Both the position numbers and the translations under genes were made by a program. The notes beneath the pieces were generated by a model. That model made no database searches. It worked only from the letters and a program-made list of their open reading frames with translations, and was not told the origin of the DNA. From NCBI GenBank assembly GCA_001899765.1, contig MKWM01000018.1, positions 1-64,000 of the forward strand: 64,000 nucleotides of DNA, written 5' to 3'. This DNA comes from Thiobacillus sp. 63-78 (GTDB lineage: Bacteria; Pseudomonadota; Gammaproteobacteria; Burkholderiales; Thiobacillaceae). Every line of letters starts with the position of its first letter. Position 1 is the stretch's first letter. Shown here one piece after another: positions 5,940 through 30,789 of this stretch.

Positions 5940-11875
<5,936 letters not shown>

Positions 11876-11937: not shown

Positions 11938-13395
11938 ATGGCCATCGACCGCTCTTGCCGGATGCTTTCAGCACCTTACTACCCACGTTCATTCACCATC
12001 CTGGTCATCGTCGCCATGGGCGTGCTGATCGTGCCGCTCGCCAGCGGCCTGATCAATGCGGTGCACGTGCTGCAGGGCGTGGTCGACACCCAGCGCCAGT
12101 TCACCCGCAGCAGCCTCGCGGTCACGCGCGACGTGCGCCAGATCGTCGAATCGGTCAGTCAGTTGCAGCGCGCCGCGGGGCAATACCATTTGTTGAAGGA
12201 TGCCGAACTGGGCCCGGCCTTGCGGCAAAGCTTCGACGAACTGCACGCCCAGCTGGCGCAACTCGACACGCTGCTCGCCGACCCCCGTTCGCGCACCGCA
12301 CTGGCCACGCTGCAGGCACGCAGCCAGGCGCTGTATCGTCAGGTGCGGCCGGGCGAATTCCTGGCCAGCGAACAGTTCCAGGCGCTCGGCCCGGCTTTCG
12401 ACAGCCTGCATGATGTCGCGCGCACGCTGCTCGTCCAGGCGGACACCGCGGTGCAGCGCGAATTGCAGACGCTGGAAGGAACCGTGCAGGCCACCCGCCG
12501 GCGGCTGATCCTCCTGGCGCTGGCATTGATTCCGTTGACGCTGCTGCTGGCCGCCGTGTTTTCCTGGATGATCAACCGTCCGATCAAACAGCTCAAATCG
12601 TCGATCCAGCAGCTCGGTCTGGCCGACCTGCGCCCCCTGCCTGCCATCAGCGGGCCGCAGGACATCGTCGAACTGGGGCGGGAAATCGACTGGCTGCGCC
12701 AGCGCCTGCAGGCGCTGGAAGAGCAGAAACTGCGTTTCCTGCGCCACGTGTCGCATGAACTGAAAACGCCGCTCGCCTCGCTGCGCGAAGGCGTGGCGCT
12801 GTTGAAAGACGAACTGGCGGGCAGTCTCAACCTGCGCCAGCGCAGCATCGTCGGCATCATGGACAGCGGCAGCCGCGACCTGCAGAAACGCATCGAAGAC
12901 CTGATCCGCTACAGCAGCATGGTGCGCGGGGCGGCCCCTGCGCCCGCCACGCCGCACGCGCTGAGCGACACACTGAACACCGTTCTGGCACGGCAAAAAC
13001 TGGCGCTCGATGCGCGCCGTATCGAGGTCGTGACGGCGTTTGCGGCGCCGGTGCTCCACACCGAACGCGGCCAGCTGGAAACCATACTCGACAATCTGTT
13101 GTCGAATGCGGTCAAATTCAGTCCCGAGGGCGGGCGCATCCTGGTGAAGAGCGTGGCGGTCGAGGGCTCGGTCGAAGTCTGGGTATGCGATCAGGGCGAT
13201 GGCATCCCCGAAGACGAGCGCGCGCGCGTCTTCGAGCCGTTTTTTCAGGGCGCGCGTCAACCGGCGAGCACGGTGCGGGGCAGCGGACTCGGCCTGTCGA
13301 TCGTGCGCGAGTCGCTGCGAGCGGTCGGCGGCGACGCCGAGGTGATCGACCATCCGCCCTGGTCGACCTGTTTCCGGCTACGCTGGCCCCATTAA
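11938..13395 (+). CDS. glrK: Sensor histidine kinase, GlrK/QseE type
   Basis: About 485 residues. A transmembrane helix (FTILVIVAMGVLIVPLASG) is followed by a roughly 150-residue helical periplasmic part, a second helix (LILLALALIPLTLLLAAVFSW), a HAMP-like linker, and the phospho-acceptor His273 in RHVSHELKTP. The ATPase domain has DNLLSNAVKFS (N box), CDQGDGIPEDE (G1) and GSGLGLSIV (G2). The neighbours are a QseG-like lipoprotein and a sigma54 activator, the glrK-qseG-glrR order of enterobacteria, which supports this assignment over a generic kinase. An ATG at 11962 is an alternative start. The three genes are tightly packed and probably one operon. Confidence 0.85.
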   Translation: MAIDRSCRMLSAPYYPRSFTILVIVAMGVLIVPLASGLINAVHVLQGVVDTQRQFTRSSLAVTRDVRQIVESVSQLQRAAGQYHLLKDAELGPALRQSFDELHAQLAQLDTLLADPRSRTALATLQARSQALYRQVRPGEFLASEQFQALGPAFDSLHDVARTLLVQADTAVQRELQTLEGTVQATRRRLILLALALIPLTLLLAAVFSWMINRPIKQLKSSIQQLGLADLRPLPAISGPQDIVELGREIDWLRQRLQALEEQKLRFLRHVSHELKTPLASLREGVALLKDELAGSLNLRQRSIVGIMDSGSRDLQKRIEDLIRYSSMVRGAAPAPATPHALSDTLNTVLARQKLALDARRIEVVTAFAAPVLHTERGQLETILDNLLSNAVKFSPEGGRILVKSVAVEGSVEVWVCDQGDGIPEDERARVFEPFFQGARQPASTVRGSGLGLSIVRESLRAVGGDAEVIDHPPWSTCFRLRWPH

Positions 13396-13410: not shown

Positions 13411-13890
13411 ATGACCTTCAAATCCGTCCTGCTGGCCAGTCTTTTGCTGACGCTGAACGCCTGCGTCGTCCCGCCGCTGCCCGGCCAGACGACGGCTCCC
13501 GTCAGCCGGGCATCCGGCATGAGTGCGTCGGCACTCTTGAGCGAGCTGTCGCGGGTGGCGGCGCTATCGCCCGAACAGCGTCGGCGCGAATTGGCCGCGC
13601 TGGACAATGAGCGCCGCCTGGACGACCTCAAACGCTTCCAGCAGGCCGCCCTGCTGGAGCGCGAAGAGAGCGTGGACGCGTACGAACGCAGCCTCCGGAG
13701 CCTGGCTGCGATCGACGACGCCGATCCTCGCGCGCATACGCTGCTCGACCTGATGAAGAAATCGCTCACGGCGCGTATCGAGCTCCGGCAGCAGACCGCA
13801 CGCGCGCAGGAACTGCAGGACAAGCTCGACCAGATCAAGGCGCTGGAAAAAACCCTGCAGCAGCGCAACACGCTGCCCAAGCCGCCATGA
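13411..13890 (+). CDS. QseG-like lipoprotein
   Basis: 159 residues. A signal peptide ends in a lipobox (LNAC, Cys18), so the mature protein should be lipid-anchored. The rest is charged and helical, probably coiled coil, with no enzyme motif. Its place between the kinase and the sigma54 response regulator matches qseG in the enterobacterial glrK-qseG-glrR operon, where the outer-membrane lipoprotein binds and stimulates the kinase. That role is inferred from position and architecture. The stop overlaps the glrR start by 4 bases. Confidence 0.75.
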   Translation: MTFKSVLLASLLLTLNACVVPPLPGQTTAPVSRASGMSASALLSELSRVAALSPEQRRRELAALDNERRLDDLKRFQQAALLEREESVDAYERSLRSLAAIDDADPRAHTLLDLMKKSLTARIELRQQTARAQELQDKLDQIKALEKTLQQRNTLPKPP

Positions 13891-15239
13891 AAAAACCTGC
13901 CATCCTGGTCGTGGACGACGATGCGGCGCTGCGCGAGCTGATCACGCTGCGGCTGGAAGCCAACGGATTCAAGGTCGAGGCCGTCGATAGCGGTGAAGCC
14001 GCCCTGGCCCGGCTGGCGCTGGCGCGGCCCGATGCCGTGCTGACCGACATGCAGATGGGCGGCATCGATGGCATGGCCCTGTTTCGGGCCATCCATGCGC
14101 GCGACCCGGCGTTGCCGGTGATCGTGCTGACCGCACACGGCACCATCCCGGACGCCGTGGCCGCCACCCAGCAGGGCTTGTTCGGCTATCTGACCAAACC
14201 CTACGATGCGCCTACGCTGGTCGACCTGCTGAAGCGCGCCACCCGGCTGGCCGGCAGCGGCCCCGACGTCAAGGATGACGGCTGGCGCAGCGAAATCGTC
14301 ACCGTCAGCCCGGTGATGGACACGCTGCTGGCCGAAGCCCGTCTGGCCGCCCAGATCGACGCGGCCCTGATGATCCAGGGCGAATCGGGCACCGGCAAGG
14401 AATTGCTGGCGCGCGCGATTCATCGTGCCAGCCCGCGCCACGCCAAACCCTTCGTCGCGATCAATTGCGGGGCGATTCCGGCCGAACTGCTCGAATCGGA
14501 ATTGTTCGGCCATGTCAAAGGCGCCTTCACCGGCGCGGGCCGCGATCATCCCGGCCTGTTTCTCAGCGCGCAGGGCGGGACCGTGTTTCTGGACGAAATC
14601 GGCGACATGCCCGCGCCGCTTCAGGTCAAGCTGCTGCGCGTGCTGCAGGAGGGCGAGGTGCGCCCGGTCGGCGCGACCGAGACACGCGCGGTCGACGTGC
14701 GCATCCTCTCGGCCACGCACCGCAACCTCGAGGAGGCCATCGTCAGCGGGGAGTTTCGCGAAGATCTGTATTACCGGCTGAACGTGGTCAACCTGACGCT
14801 GCCGCCGCTGCGTGAACGGCGCGAGGACATTCCGTTGCTGGCGCAGCACTTCCTTGCCGTCCTGACGGAGAAATACCAGCGCCGTATCCATGGCTTTACC
14901 CCCGATGCGCTCGACATGCTGGTGGCGGCCGACTGGCCCGGCAATATCCGTCAACTGCACAATGCGCTGGAACAATGCTGCGCCCTGTGCACCACGGCCA
15001 CCATCCCGGCCGCACTGGTCGGCCGCGCCCTGCGCGACAAGCCCGCCGACATCCAGCCGCTGGCCGAGGCGCGCGCGGCCTTTGAGCGTAATTACCTCAT
15101 CACCCTGCTGAAACTGACCCGCGGCCAGGTCAGCGAAGTGGCGCGGCTGGCAGGACGCAACCGCACCGAAGTCTATCGGCTGCTGCAACGCCACGATCTC
15201 ACGCCCGCCCTGTTCAAGGACCGCGACGACACCGACTGA
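13887..15239 (+). CDS. glrR: Sigma54-dependent response regulator, GlrR type
   Basis: 450 residues with three domains. The receiver has acidic residues at 10-12 and phospho-acceptor Asp54 (LTDMQM). The AAA+ domain has Walker A GESGTGKE with Lys171, the sigma54-contact loop GAFTGA at 212-217, Walker [11 protein letters not shown] and the arginine finger region DLYYRLNVV. The C-terminus is a Fis-like helix-turn-helix ([21 protein letters not shown]). All residues for activating sigma54 polymerase are present. Two TGTC-N10-GACA sites and two sigma54 promoters lie immediately downstream and are its likely targets. Confidence 0.9.
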
Positions 15240-15240
15240 C

Positions 15241-15258
15241 TGTCGGGCAACGGCGACA
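15241..15258. promoter_or_regulatory. Predicted GlrR binding site 1
   Basis: TGTCGGGCAACGGCGACA, an exact TGTC-N10-GACA inverted repeat, which is the site described for GlrR upstream of glmY in enterobacteria. It starts one base after the glrR stop codon and lies about 72 bases upstream of a sigma54 -24/-12 element. It differs by one base from site 2 at 15678-15695. Confidence 0.75.
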
Positions 15259-15329
15259 TCCAGCCGGCCCACACGGCGCCCGATCCGTCCATCTGACGGA
15301 ACGCGATTGATTCATCAGGCTATTTTTTC

Positions 15330-15346
15330 CTGGCACACACTCTGCA
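15330..15346 (+). promoter_or_regulatory. Sigma54 promoter of the DUF1328 gene
   Basis: CTGGCAC then ACACTCTGCA. The GG (15332-15333) and GC (15344-15345) are separated by exactly 10 bases, the invariant spacing of -24/-12 promoters. The predicted transcription start is near 15357, giving a leader of about 42 bases before the ATG at 15399. Confidence 0.78.
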
Positions 15347-15398
15347 CTGAGGGGATAGCGTCTTGAGGCGCGTTCATCAACGCTCAGAGGAGAAGACC

Positions 15399-15566
15399 AT
15401 GTTCGGATGGGCCGTCACATTCCTGATCATCGCCATCATCGCCGGGATTTTCGGCTTTGCGGGGGTAGCCGGCACCGCCGCCTGGGTGGCCAGAATCCTG
15501 TTTGTGGTGGGTCTGGTCGCGTTTCTTGTGATGTTGGTCACGGGCCGCCGCCCCCCCGTCGCATAG
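15399..15566 (+). CDS. DUF1328 (YtjA-type) small membrane protein
   Basis: 55 residues forming two hydrophobic helices ([18 protein letters not shown] and [15 protein letters not shown]) with a short basic tail. It matches the DUF1328 family of tiny inner-membrane proteins of unknown function. The ATG has AGAGGAGAAG upstream, a strong ribosome site. It lies behind a sigma54 promoter and a GlrR-type site, so it is probably induced when the neighbouring kinase senses its signal. A GCCCGG-tca-CCGGGC hairpin follows at 15590-15604. Confidence 0.88.
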
Positions 15567-15677
15567 CCCGCACGCCGGACTTTTTTCGCGCCCGGTCACC
15601 GGGCCGCCACGGCATGTCGCTGCGCGTATACAAAAAAAGCATGTCAAAACAAATTGTTACAAGCCTATGGGTTCATC

Positions 15678-15695
15678 TGTCGGGGAACGGCGACA
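15678..15695. promoter_or_regulatory. Predicted GlrR binding site 2
   Basis: TGTCGGGGAACGGCGACA, an exact TGTC-N10-GACA repeat differing at one base from site 1. It lies 85 bases upstream of the second sigma54 promoter. Conservation of the spacer as well as the arms suggests it is a duplicated or strongly constrained site. Confidence 0.75.
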
Positions 15696-15748
15696 ACGTA
15701 GGGCGATTCCCTTCGCCAAACCCCGGGCAGATCACGGCATACATCAAA

Positions 15749-15761
15749 TAAGCATTTGATT
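15749..15761. promoter_or_regulatory. Predicted IHF binding site
   Basis: TAAGCATTTGATT matches the IHF consensus (YAA-N4-TTGATW) at every defined position. It lies between GlrR site 2 and the sigma54 promoter, in an AT-rich stretch, where IHF bends DNA at sigma54 promoters. Confidence 0.6.
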
Positions 15762-15779
15762 CAATTGATTAAAAATTAT

Positions 15780-15796
15780 CTGGCACGGTCATCGCT
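15780..15796 (+). promoter_or_regulatory. Sigma54 promoter of the EF-hand operon
   Basis: CTGGCACGGTCATCGCT, with GG (15782-15783) and GC (15794-15795) exactly 10 bases apart and the extended TGGCACG of the consensus. The predicted start is near 15807, about 46 bases before the ATG of the first EF-hand gene. Confidence 0.78.
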
Positions 15797-15852
15797 AGAG
15801 CTCCGCCTGAGTGCTTCCGCATTCTTGAATCCATCCATTACAGGAGATCAGC

Positions 15853-16167
15853 ATGAAATCTATCAATCGTCACCTCTGGACTCTCGGCCTGGCCGGCGTA
15901 TTGGGCGCCACCGCGTCCATCCCGGTCCTGGCCGCGTCAGGCTCGTCCGGTTTCAAAAGCTATGACAAAAATGGCGACGGCCAGATCAGCCTGCAGGAAT
16001 ATCAGGCGAAAGGCGGCCAGGAGCAAACCTTCCGCCTGATCGACAGCAACGGCGACCACAGCGTGAGTCCGGACGAATTCGCCAAGCAAGGCACGTCATC
16101 CGCCACCCAGGGCGCGCCGGCATCGCCCGCCGCACCGGCCATGCCTGCGCCCGACGATCGCCTCTGA
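15853..16167 (+). CDS. Exported EF-hand calcium-binding protein
   Basis: 104 residues. A signal peptide (to about residue 27, PVLAA) is followed by two EF-hand loops: residues 38-49, DKNGDGQISLQE, fully canonical, and 64-75, DSNGDHSVSPDE, with His in place of the usual Gly at loop position 6. The C-terminal tail is Ala/Pro-rich and probably disordered. A periplasmic or envelope calcium-binding role is inferred. The ATG has CAGGAGATC upstream. It is the first gene behind the second GlrR/sigma54 promoter and 43 bases before a second EF-hand gene, so the two are probably co-transcribed. Confidence 0.8.
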   Translation: MKSINRHLWTLGLAGVLGATASIPVLAASGSSGFKSYDKNGDGQISLQEYQAKGGQEQTFRLIDSNGDHSVSPDEFAKQGTSSATQGAPASPAAPAMPAPDDRL

Positions 16168-16210
16168 TCAGCGTGACGGAACCTGAAACCCTTCATATAT
16201 GGAGAGCATC

Positions 16211-16690
16211 ATGACCACACACCATCGCAGTCTTCTGACGCTTGCGCTTGCCGGCATACTGGGTGCGGGCGCCGTCGGACAGGCCCAGGCGGCGGCCGTC
16301 GACTTCAAGACTTACGACAGCAATGGCGACGGCAAGATCAGTCTGCAGGAATACGAAGCCCAGGGCGGCCAGGCCAAGGCCTTCAAGGAAGGCGACAGCA
16401 ATCACGACAACGCCCTCGATCGCGATGAGCTCGTCAAGGCCCACTCGAACGCCGACCGCATCGCGGCAGGCAAATACGTGGATGACGCCTGGATTACGAC
16501 CAAGGTGAAAACCCTGCTGCTGAAAGATGAGGGCGTGAAGGGCCTCGATGTGAACGTGGAAACCCACAAGGGCATCGTGCAACTGGCCGGCTGGGTAAAC
16601 AATCCCTCGCAGGTCGCCCAGGCGGAAAAAATCGCCCGCGGCGTGGAGGGCGTCAAAACGGTGGAAAACGATCTGCAGGTCAAACGCTGA
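16211..16690 (+). CDS. Exported EF-hand protein with C-terminal BON domain
   Basis: 159 residues. A signal peptide ends near AQAAA (25-29). EF-hand loop 1 is at 36-47 (DSNGDGKISLQE). The second is at 62-73 (DSNHDNALDRDE). A BON domain spans about 88-158 (ITTKVKTLLLKDEGV ... KGIVQLAGWV ... VEGVKTVENDLQV), like OsmY, a periplasmic lipid-associated fold. The ATG at 16211 is preferred over 16199 because GGAGAG sits 4 bases before it. The combination suggests calcium-responsive attachment to the envelope; that is inference. It shares its leader style and EF-hand 1 with the preceding gene, suggesting duplication. Confidence 0.82.
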   Translation: MTTHHRSLLTLALAGILGAGAVGQAQAAAVDFKTYDSNGDGKISLQEYEAQGGQAKAFKEGDSNHDNALDRDELVKAHSNADRIAAGKYVDDAWITTKVKTLLLKDEGVKGLDVNVETHKGIVQLAGWVNNPSQVAQAEKIARGVEGVKTVENDLQVKR

Positions 16691-16752
16691 GCGTGGCGTG
16701 CCGGCGGCCGCGTGCGGCCGCCGGCCTGCGCGGTGGCAACCGGGAGAATCAC

Positions 16753-16923
16753 ATGTATCGGACCCTGTCATGTCTCGACGATGAACACATGCAACTGTAC
16801 GAATGGAGCGGGGCGGGAGCGGGGATTACCCTGGCCGGCGTGGCGAAAGCGCCGCGAGCCCCACGGGCCTGGCACGCGTTGTGTGGCGTGATGGTGCTCC
16901 TGACCGCCCTGCTGGCGCTTTGA
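16753..16923 (+). CDS. Hypothetical 56-residue membrane protein
   Basis: A small open frame with a good ribosome site (GGGAG before the ATG), a polar N-terminus (LDDEHMQLYEWSGAG) and one C-terminal hydrophobic helix (HALCGVMVLLTALLAL). No family recognised. It begins 62 bases after the EF-hand/BON gene in the same direction, so it may be the last gene of the GlrR-controlled unit. It could also be spurious. Confidence 0.45.
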   Translation: MYRTLSCLDDEHMQLYEWSGAGAGITLAGVAKAPRAPRAWHALCGVMVLLTALLAL

Positions 16924-29418: not shown

Positions 29419-30789
29419 CTAAGCTTCCTTTTTCTGTTTGACCGGCCGTTTCCAGTCGTCGACGGTAAATTGCTTCGCCCGCGATAGCGTCAGTTCACCC
29501 GCCGGGGCATCGCGCGTCAGCGTGGTGCCCGCGCCCAGCGTCGCGCCCTGGCCGACCGTGACGGGCGCCACCAGCTGCGTGTCGGATCCCACGAACACAT
29601 CGTCGCCGATGACCGTGCGGTGCTTGTTGGCGCCATCGTAATTGCAGGTGATGGTGCCCGCGCCGATGTTGACCCGCTTGCCCATGGTGGTGTCGCCGAC
29701 GTAGGACAGGTGATTGATCTTGGAGCCATCGTCGATCTGGCTGTTCTTGATCTCGACGAAATTGCCGACGTGGACGTCGCGTGCCAGCGACGTGCCCGGG
29801 CGAATGCGCGAGAACGGTCCCAGCCGGTTGGCCTCGCCGATCACGGCGTCGTCGATCAGGGTGAAGGCGTCGAGGCGGGTGCCGGCCGCCACCTTGACGT
29901 TGCGCAGCACGCAGTTGGCGCCCACTTGCACGTCATCGCCCAATTCCACAAGGCCTTCGAAGACGCAATTGACGTCGATCACGACGTCGCGCCCGCAGCT
30001 CAGCCGGCCGCGCACGTCGAGCCGGGCCGGGTCCATCAGGGTGACTCCGGCGTCGAGCAGCGCCTGGGCCGTCTCGCCCTGGTGAATGCGTTCGAGTTCG
30101 GCCAGCTGGGCCTTGCTGTTGACGCCCATGACCTCCCATTCCAGGGCCGGCTGGCAGGTCATCACCTCCATGCCGTCGTGCACCGCCATGGCGACAATGT
30201 CCGTCAGATAATATTCGCCCTGCGCGTTATCGTTCTTCAGCGCATGGATCCACTGCCTGAGATGACGGGTCGCCACCGCAAGGATGCCGGTGTTGACTTC
30301 CTGGATCGCCCGTTCGGCAGGCGTCGCGTCCTTGTGCTCGACGATGCGCCGCACCCGGTTGTCGGCGTCCCGCACGATGCGCCCATAGCCGTCGGGCTGC
30401 GCCAGCTCGACCGTCAGCAACCCCAGTTTGCCCGCCTGGGCCGCGGTGACGAGCGGCTGCAAGGTACGCGTATGCGTCAACGGCACATCGCCATACAGCA
30501 CCAGCGTCACACTGTCGTCGGACAGCTGCGGCAGTGCCTGCTTCACGGCGTGGCCGGTGCCCTGCTGTTCGGCCTGCAGCACAAACGTCAGCTTGTCGTC
30601 AGCCATCGCCTGCGGCACGGCCTCGCCGCCGAAGCCGTAGACCACGCAGATTCGTGCCGCATCCAGCGCATGCGCCGTATCCACCACATGACCCAGCAGC
30701 GGTTTGCCCGCCAGCGTGTGCAGCACCTTGGGCAGGCTGGAGCGCATCCGGGTGCCCTTGCCCGCCGCGAGTATCAGGATTTCAAGCAT
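29419..30789 (-). CDS. glmU: Bifunctional GlcNAc-1-phosphate uridyltransferase / GlcN-1-P acetyltransferase
   Basis: 456 residues. The N-terminal pyrophosphorylase domain has [15 protein letters not shown]. The C-terminal left-handed beta-helix acetyltransferase includes [14 protein letters not shown] and the later block around [14 protein letters not shown]. It performs the last two steps to UDP-GlcNAc for peptidoglycan and lipopolysaccharide. It is the promoter-proximal gene of a glmU-glmS operon transcribed leftwards. Confidence 0.97.

Follow-up and report, generated by a model that had tools for sequence, protein, structure and literature searches.

A GlrR-type site code paired with sigma54-like promoters beside glrR in Thiobacillus and related bacteria, with envelope protein genes as predicted targets

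Can the DNA-recognition code of a bacterial enhancer-binding protein persist in a distant lineage while the genes that it governs are exchanged? The question is raised by a locus of Thiobacillus sp. 63-78 (Burkholderiales), within a stretch of 64,000 nucleotides (contig MKWM01000018.1, positions 1 to 64,000; hereafter, the window). A sequence-only reading of this stretch had described two near-identical GlrR-type sites, each paired with a sigma54 promoter, next to the glrR gene itself, and had proposed that the code known from the enterobacterial small-RNA gene glmY is conserved here with a different regulon. Its basic observations proved accurate: both TGTC-N10-GACA sites lie at the coordinates claimed and have 17 of 18 bases in common, the gaps to the -24/-12 elements, given there as 70 to 90 bases, are 72 and 85 nt with exact GG-N10-GC spacing in both elements, and the glrR stop codon (15237-15239) ends one base before site 1. 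To this we add a distal site upstream of the second one, two IHF-like elements, and the finding that site 1 is only weakly conserved (Table 1). Open reading frames (ORFs) with ribosome-binding sites lie directly downstream of both promoters, and RpoN is encoded in the genome. A simple scan for a sigma70 promoter in the region from 15100 to 16900 returned none.

Table 1. Features of the glrR locus, in coordinates of the 64,000-nt window
Feature	Coordinates	Strand	Remarks
Glutamate synthase genes	5940-10424 and 10421-11875		
Sensor histidine kinase gene, GlrK/QseE relative	11938..13395	+	HAMP, HisKA, HATPase_c; start codon uncertain
Small putative lipoprotein gene, qseG position	13411..13890	+	N terminus lipobox-like by eye
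glrR, response regulator/sigma54 activator gene	13887..15239	+	REC, AAA+ with GAFTGA, HTH
UAS1, predicted GlrR-type site of promoter 1, TGTCGGGCAACGGCGACA	15241..15258	+	Matrix score 17.4
IHF-like TTGATT	15307..15312	+	24 nt upstream of promoter 1
Promoter 1, sigma54-like -24/-12 element, TGGCACACACTCTGCA	15331..15346	+	GG-N10-GC exact
DUF1328 small membrane protein gene, predicted promoter 1 target	15399..15566	+	PF07043, E = 3.7e-14
Distal UAS of promoter 2, TGTCGCTGCGCGTATACA	15615..15632	+	Right arm degenerate; 63 bp upstream of UAS2
Proximal UAS2 of promoter 2, TGTCGGGGAACGGCGACA	15678..15695	+	Matrix score 19.1, window maximum
IHF consensus YAA-N4-TTGATW, TAAGCATTTGATT	15749..15761	+	Its TTGATT 25 nt upstream of promoter 2
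Promoter 2, sigma54-like -24/-12 element, TGGCACGGTCATCGCT	15781..15796	+	GG-N10-GC exact
Putative secreted EF-hand protein gene, predicted promoter 2 target	15853..16167	+	PF00036 and related models; signal peptide by eye
Putative secreted EF-hand + BON (OsmY-like) protein gene	16211..16690	+	PF04972, E = 1.1e-21; EF-hand models

The gene order kinase-lipoprotein-regulator is that of E. coli, and the kinase is related to E. coli GlrK (33% identity over 485 aligned positions), while the window GlrR is 55% identical to its E. coli counterpart and, as seen in the alignment of the two, carries the GAFTGA motif. Pfam searches recovered REC, sigma54-interacting AAA+, and HTH domains in it, the HTH_8 model reaching just 16.9 bits (cut-off, 22). 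In a tree of 87 sequences, the window and E. coli proteins were placed in a single clade of 48 (support, 0.924) that is free of paralogs; one presumed GlrR ortholog (L021) fell outside this clade, possibly reflecting a wrong ORF pick. The best NCBIfam model listed for the window protein is the GlrR equivalog NF011695, with 574.8 bits, below the cut-off of 763. By the tree, the window regulator is thus a GlrR ortholog, albeit one outside NCBI's equivalog. The HTH region of 165 sequences classed as GlrR orthologs yielded the consensus A-RNRTeFY-LL, which differs from that of 38 sequences classed as paralogs; the window protein matches it, but with V replacing F. The putative lipoprotein encoded in the qseG position gave no significant match to E. 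coli QseG in BLASTP (E = 7.1) and none to Pfam or NCBIfam models up to an E value of 0.01.

We evaluated how often sites of this kind would arise by chance. The bare TGTC-N10-GACA pattern by itself proves little: the window contains 3 matches where 0.86 would be expected, a count attained in 4 of 100 shuffles, and the whole genome contains 52, compared with 28 for the reversed control. The third match in the window (29691-29708; score of 12.4 with the site matrix described below) is probably due to chance, since no sigma54-like element was paired with it in the scan. A composite pattern, consisting of TGTCK-N8-MGACA followed after 58 to 88 nt by TGGCAC-N6-YGC, was found genome-wide at the two window places only and nowhere with the reversed control; the combination of site and sigma54 element is not a product of chance. 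A composite with a less strict sigma54 element (50 to 80 nt, TGGC-N9-GC) occurred in the genome at 5 places against 3 for the control, and a genome search with TGT-N12-ACA recovered 12 places forward and 10 in reverse (control, 9 and 7), counts so near to the control that this search is nearly powerless.

Extension of the composite search to 300 genomes of the order recovered it in 35, the source genome included, against 3 with the reversed control. A GlrR protein (E value of 1e-135 or better) is encoded in 120 of these 300 genomes, and the composite is linked to it: 33 of the 35 composite-bearing genomes have it, versus 87 of the other 265 (Fisher's P of about 1e-12). The two composite-bearing genomes without GlrR (G158 and G263) both lack TTGATW at its standard place (see below), which is weak evidence because 54 of 86 glrR-linked units also lack it there. 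In the wider class, few genomes contain the composite (10 of 274, the source genome included; reversed control, 4). We then assembled 141 glrR loci with flanks of up to 5 kb, comprising every GlrR hit from the order (128) and 13 more from the family, the window among them. When the spacer between the arms was varied from 4 to 16 in these loci, TGTC-N10-GACA was associated with 91 sigma54-like promoters (element score of ≥13) and any other spacer with at most 5, while the reversed ACAG-Nn-CTGT was found upstream of such elements 0 times at n = 10 and at most 7 times at any n. Even with the sigma54 requirement dropped, the N10 form occurs within 700 nt downstream of glrR in 72 of the 141 loci, versus ≤6 for other spacers from 2 to 19.

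After merging, these sites resolve into 86 units in 80 of the 141 loci, with 73 units situated directly downstream of glrR on the same strand; another 6 lie upstream in divergent orientation, 6 lie downstream but on the opposite strand, and 1 lies inside glrR. The sequence-only reading had called for a search near glrR in other betaproteobacteria; the outcome bears it out, the TGTC-N10-GACA pattern being conserved with sigma54-like elements in 67 of the 128 loci of the order sample and all 13 additional family loci. As most of the genomes are related, the locus counts are not independent; clustering at 80% GlrR identity reduces the 141 loci to 69 clusters, of which 41 contain a unit. The remaining 61 loci had no unit at the thresholds used, and the arrangement is therefore common, not universal. 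Among these 61, the sequence of one ends less than 300 nt from glrR; downstream, a bare TGTC-N10-GACA occurs in one and TGT-N12-ACA in a further nine. In an earlier set of 80 loci, units were sought in L001-L031 only (the rest, at ≤44% identity, and L030 served as paralogs); a manual tally found sites of the exact type paired with a sigma54-like element (score of ≥12.5) in 16 of those 31. Seven family loci represented by short flanks only (L126-L132) displayed units in three cases (L127, L128, and L132). As a separate observation, 6 of the 128 GlrR hits contain one in-frame stop (G266, G121, G206, G160, G038, and G097) and are either decaying copies or sequence errors. In two metagenome-assembled genomes labelled Desulfobulbaceae and Nitrospirota (L005 and L024), genes for GlrR relatives are likewise closely followed by sites and sigma54-like elements; if these bins are clean, the code would extend beyond Proteobacteria.

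The units share a recurrent internal organization. Exact sites number one in 48 units, two in 37, and three in 1, and 34 of the 38 adjacent site pairs are 62 to 68 bp apart. The gaps between site and promoter cluster about one helical turn apart, with one group at 72 to 77; for all 86 units the phasing is R = 0.54 at 10.5 bp (best value, 0.57 at 10.7), and with one downstream unit per 80%-identity cluster (n = 35) it is R = 0.52 at 10.5 bp (P of about 8e-5). TTGATW is present in 37 of the 86 gaps, compared with a mean of 9.1 and a maximum of 15 in 100 shuffles, and the full IHF consensus YAA-N4-TTGATW is present in 20 of the 86 units, compared with 0.38 in shuffles. Of 40 TTGATW occurrences, 32 start 24 to 26 nt upstream of the -24 element, accounting for 32 of the 86 units and leaving 54 without TTGATW at this place. 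Both window promoters fit this position rule as consensus matches, promoter 1 with TTGATT and promoter 2 with the full consensus.

To compare the sites with those of enterobacteria, we used a matrix built from 118 distinct sites of glrR loci, with the window and enterobacterial sites left out. It takes the form TGTCGCY-N4-RGCGACA, where the arms are invariant by construction and the inner bases are free; the left inner bases of the window sites are unusual, with G where 73% and 53% of the sites have C. When applied to 10 kb around glrR of E. coli K-12, the matrix ranked as its top three hits the TGT-N12-ACA sites upstream of glmY (scores of 23.9, 23.6, and 18.4; next, 8.3), two of which are 63 bp apart. 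Together with the sites near other glrR genes and the protein genes downstream of them, this ranking upholds the proposal that the DNA code is conserved and the regulon is different, as far as sequence comparison can indicate.

Within the window, the two promoters are not supported alike. In an alignment of 16 near-relative loci, the window included, TGTCG of the distal promoter 2 site is present in all 16 and both arms of that site are intact in 12 (the right arm is TACA in the window and three relatives), and UAS2 has both arms intact in 8, the remainder differing by one arm base; UAS1 is exact in both arms in 3 only (the window, L289, and L291). The promoters themselves are kept nearly throughout: TGGCAC of promoter 1 is retained by 15 of the 16 loci, and TGGCA of promoter 2 by every one. 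This arm conservation identifies promoter 2 with its site pair as the conserved unit and site 1 as the weaker part. Thus, the earlier description of two near-identical sites, each with a sigma54 element, stands, but their implied equivalence does not, for the second arm of site 1 is mostly broken in near relatives. One could go further and regard promoter 2 alone as a full GlrR unit, with UAS1 decayed or marginal and promoter 1 served either by another activator or, from about 270 to 365 bp downstream, by the paired sites at 15615 and 15678 in the role of an enhancer. Sigma54 enhancers can work from far and from either side, promoter 1 outlasts UAS1 in the alignment to the extent that five relatives keeping it (L296, L297, L162, L299, and L300) have no recognisable site, and UAS1 scores below UAS2 (17.4 versus 19.1). 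However, UAS1 of the window is intact and, at 72 nt from promoter 1, belongs to the phased group of gaps of 72 to 77; promoter 1 has its TTGATT at the standard 24 nt; and six further relatives retain the TGTC arm and differ by a single base in the right arm, which reads GACG or GACC. That promoter 2 is the only full GlrR unit is, in our view, a serious though rather unlikely possibility.

It is far less probable that an NtrC-family activator of sigma54 other than GlrR binds the sites. Such bacteria commonly encode several of these activators, some of which use TGT/ACA palindromes, but the co-occurrence with glrR in 33 of 35 genomes, the adjacency to glrR, and the top rank of the E. coli glmY sites with the same matrix all point to GlrR. 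That the inverted repeats are RNA hairpins (e.g., a terminator after glrR, as the complementary arms and the start of site 1 one base past the glrR stop might suggest) or due to chance is hardly credible, given a spacer preference and a sigma54 association that are far from chance. A simple scan found no terminator-like site between 15100 and 16900; in the minimum-energy folds of both sites the TGTC and GACA arms are unpaired with each other (z-scores of -1.84 and -0.95), the fold of site 2 being a shifted 4-pair hairpin.

As for what GlrR would control, the sequence-only reading had favored protein genes over glmY, and our searches agree with this prediction. Rfam models gave no match up to an E value of 1 between 11000 and 18500 of the window, and GlmY (RF00128) was found in none of 21 genomes searched, including the source genome, with a positive E. 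coli control; a small RNA of a known family at the window promoters was rejected on these grounds, and what follows the promoters is the above-mentioned ORFs with ribosome-binding sites. The EF-hand and EF-hand-BON genes are probably on one transcript. The EF-hand-BON protein attains 71 bits with the NCBIfam OsmY model (cut-off, 174). It also weakly matches the lanmodulin model NF053806 (31 bits; cut-off, 135), and might have a metal-binding role other than calcium.

Across the glrR loci, the first genes after the units were picked automatically as ORFs, so that some picks may be wrong; 81 of the 86 were compared with Pfam, five being set aside because they were too short or not plausible (L252, L235, L255, L208, and L247, the last inside glrR). 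The 81 comprise BON (23), EF-hand (up to 22), glycosyltransferase family 2 (12), bactofilin (5), glycine zipper (5), MdoG (3), DUF1328 (3), and CsbD (1) proteins, with family counts that overlap within proteins and with many first genes matching no family (e.g., that of L182, without a Pfam match). All three glycosyltransferases checked pass the curated cut-off for the glucan synthase MdoH.

Units also occur away from glrR. Among 30 loci examined from the composite search, 15 places are not beside glrR, and at only 2 of these (L104 and L088) does Pfam assign the following gene to a recurring target family, in both cases BON; at the remaining places, either the next gene could be placed in no recurring family or the match seems fortuitous, several of them falling in coding DNA. 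In L089, an unlinked unit is followed by a gene for a 51-residue protein that appeared DUF1328-like by eye, had no Pfam or NCBIfam match, and was not counted. Separately, units away from glrR in L105, L108, and L109 precede small putative secreted proteins that are alike by eye, two of them sharing an SGSAN-NAQW stretch. Of the 52 sites in the source genome, 50 were scored and 17 regions were inspected; one convincing further unit emerged, on another contig (L321:1509-1695; G000:C73:145508), most of the other sites lying inside long open frames without a strong sigma54-like element. This unit was found through its site score and not through proximity to glrR: its site TGTCGTCATATGACGACA is the best of the 50 (24.2), a partner with one imperfect arm lies 78 bp on, and the sigma54-like element TGGCCCGCCTGTTGCT lies 74 nt beyond the partner, ahead of a gene whose product has a bactofilin domain by Pfam (E = 6.4e-18). 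Units on contigs other than that of glrR thus precede the same target families, namely, BON (L104 and L088) and bactofilin (the source genome), and in L251 a bactofilin unit by Pfam lies about 3.4 kb from glrR. At another place in the source genome (L336:1333-1450; G000:C46:52132), a good sigma54-like element, TGGCATGTAATATGCT, stands 84 nt after TGTCCGGTTGTCATGACA, ahead of an ORF that may encode a secreted protein; TGTCCGGTTGTCATGACA is probably the site of another activator, as its GlrR matrix score is only 4.5.

Hence, we consider it very probable, from these sequence comparisons, that the GlrK/GlrR two-component system drives the neighboring envelope genes. By analogy with the known biology of these families, an envelope signal would activate the kinase, perhaps via the lipoprotein; dimers of phosphorylated GlrR would bind the TGTC-N10-GACA sites; IHF, at its fixed place just upstream of the promoter, would bend the DNA; and the AAA+ hexamer of GlrR would open the sigma54 polymerase complex. 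Promoter 2 would serve the EF-hand and EF-hand-BON genes and promoter 1 the DUF1328 gene. The genome comparison supports the predicted code, its pairing with sigma54-like elements, the link to glrR, the pairs spaced mostly by 62 to 68 bp, the phasing, and the fixed IHF-like element in many units. The GlrR code is conserved, a position beside glrR is common, and in this group the proteins controlled appear to be those of the envelope. More tentatively, and with doubts slightly outweighing confidence, we propose that GlrR is a broadly conserved regulator of envelope maintenance, with a grammar of TGTCGC-N6-GCGACA-like pairs 62 to 68 bp apart, phased with the promoter and often accompanied by IHF at 24 to 26 nt, and with a regulon mainly of BON/OsmY-like, EF-hand, MdoG/MdoH periplasmic-glucan, glycine-zipper, DUF1328, and bactofilin proteins; the enterobacterial glmY circuit would then be one lineage's rewiring. 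The GlrR/QseF literature that we examined concerns enterobacteria, via GlmY, rpoE, and reports of epinephrine sensing, and conserved envelope targets in genomes where GlmY was not found would reveal the role of the system outside the gut. It would also illustrate cleanly how the targets of a DNA-recognition code can be exchanged without loss of the code itself, and the site matrix and target list can be used for tests in many species.

Searches of the open-access literature (subscription papers lie outside it) recovered nothing on QseF with sigma54 in betaproteobacteria, nothing on GlrR in Betaproteobacteria, nothing that joins BON, EF-hand, and RpoN or a GlrR regulon and periplasmic glucan, and, for bactofilin with RpoN, only matches that appear unrelated, judged by title. 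A survey of Acidithiobacillia names GlrR systems, and its retrieved passages contain no GlrR binding site (PMC12194929). The closest known system is the enterobacterial GlrK/QseG/GlrR (QseE/QseG/QseF), which is similar to that of the window in gene order, in GlrR (55%) and GlrK (33%) identity, in the TGTC-N10-GACA site, in the pair 63 bp apart, and in the sigma54 promoter. It differs in that its regulator is associated with glmY, whereas the units described here lie downstream of glrR and before protein genes, in genomes of which 0 of 21 have GlmY; in that an IHF-like element lies 24 to 26 nt from the -24 element in many of the units studied here; and in its QseG, to which the window lipoprotein has no detectable similarity. 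At E. coli glmY, IHF is reported to aid QseF, according to passages of one study (PMC6075780). Excerpts of a study of the Proteus mirabilis glmY-qseEGF locus give the consensus TGTCN10GACA, with three putative QseF sites, two IHF sites, and sigma54 (PMC8745638); the consensus is like that of our units, but its target glmY shares one operon with qseEGF. At E. coli rpoE (rpoEP2), GlrR/QseF acts with sigma54 on an envelope stress gene, as stated in parts of a further report (PMC6358824); the target there is a sigma factor, whereas the predicted targets here are envelope proteins. Since, according to the passages of these E. coli studies, both known targets, glmY and rpoE, likewise have a role in the envelope (PMC6075780 and PMC6358824), the purpose of the system may be shared even though the genes differ.
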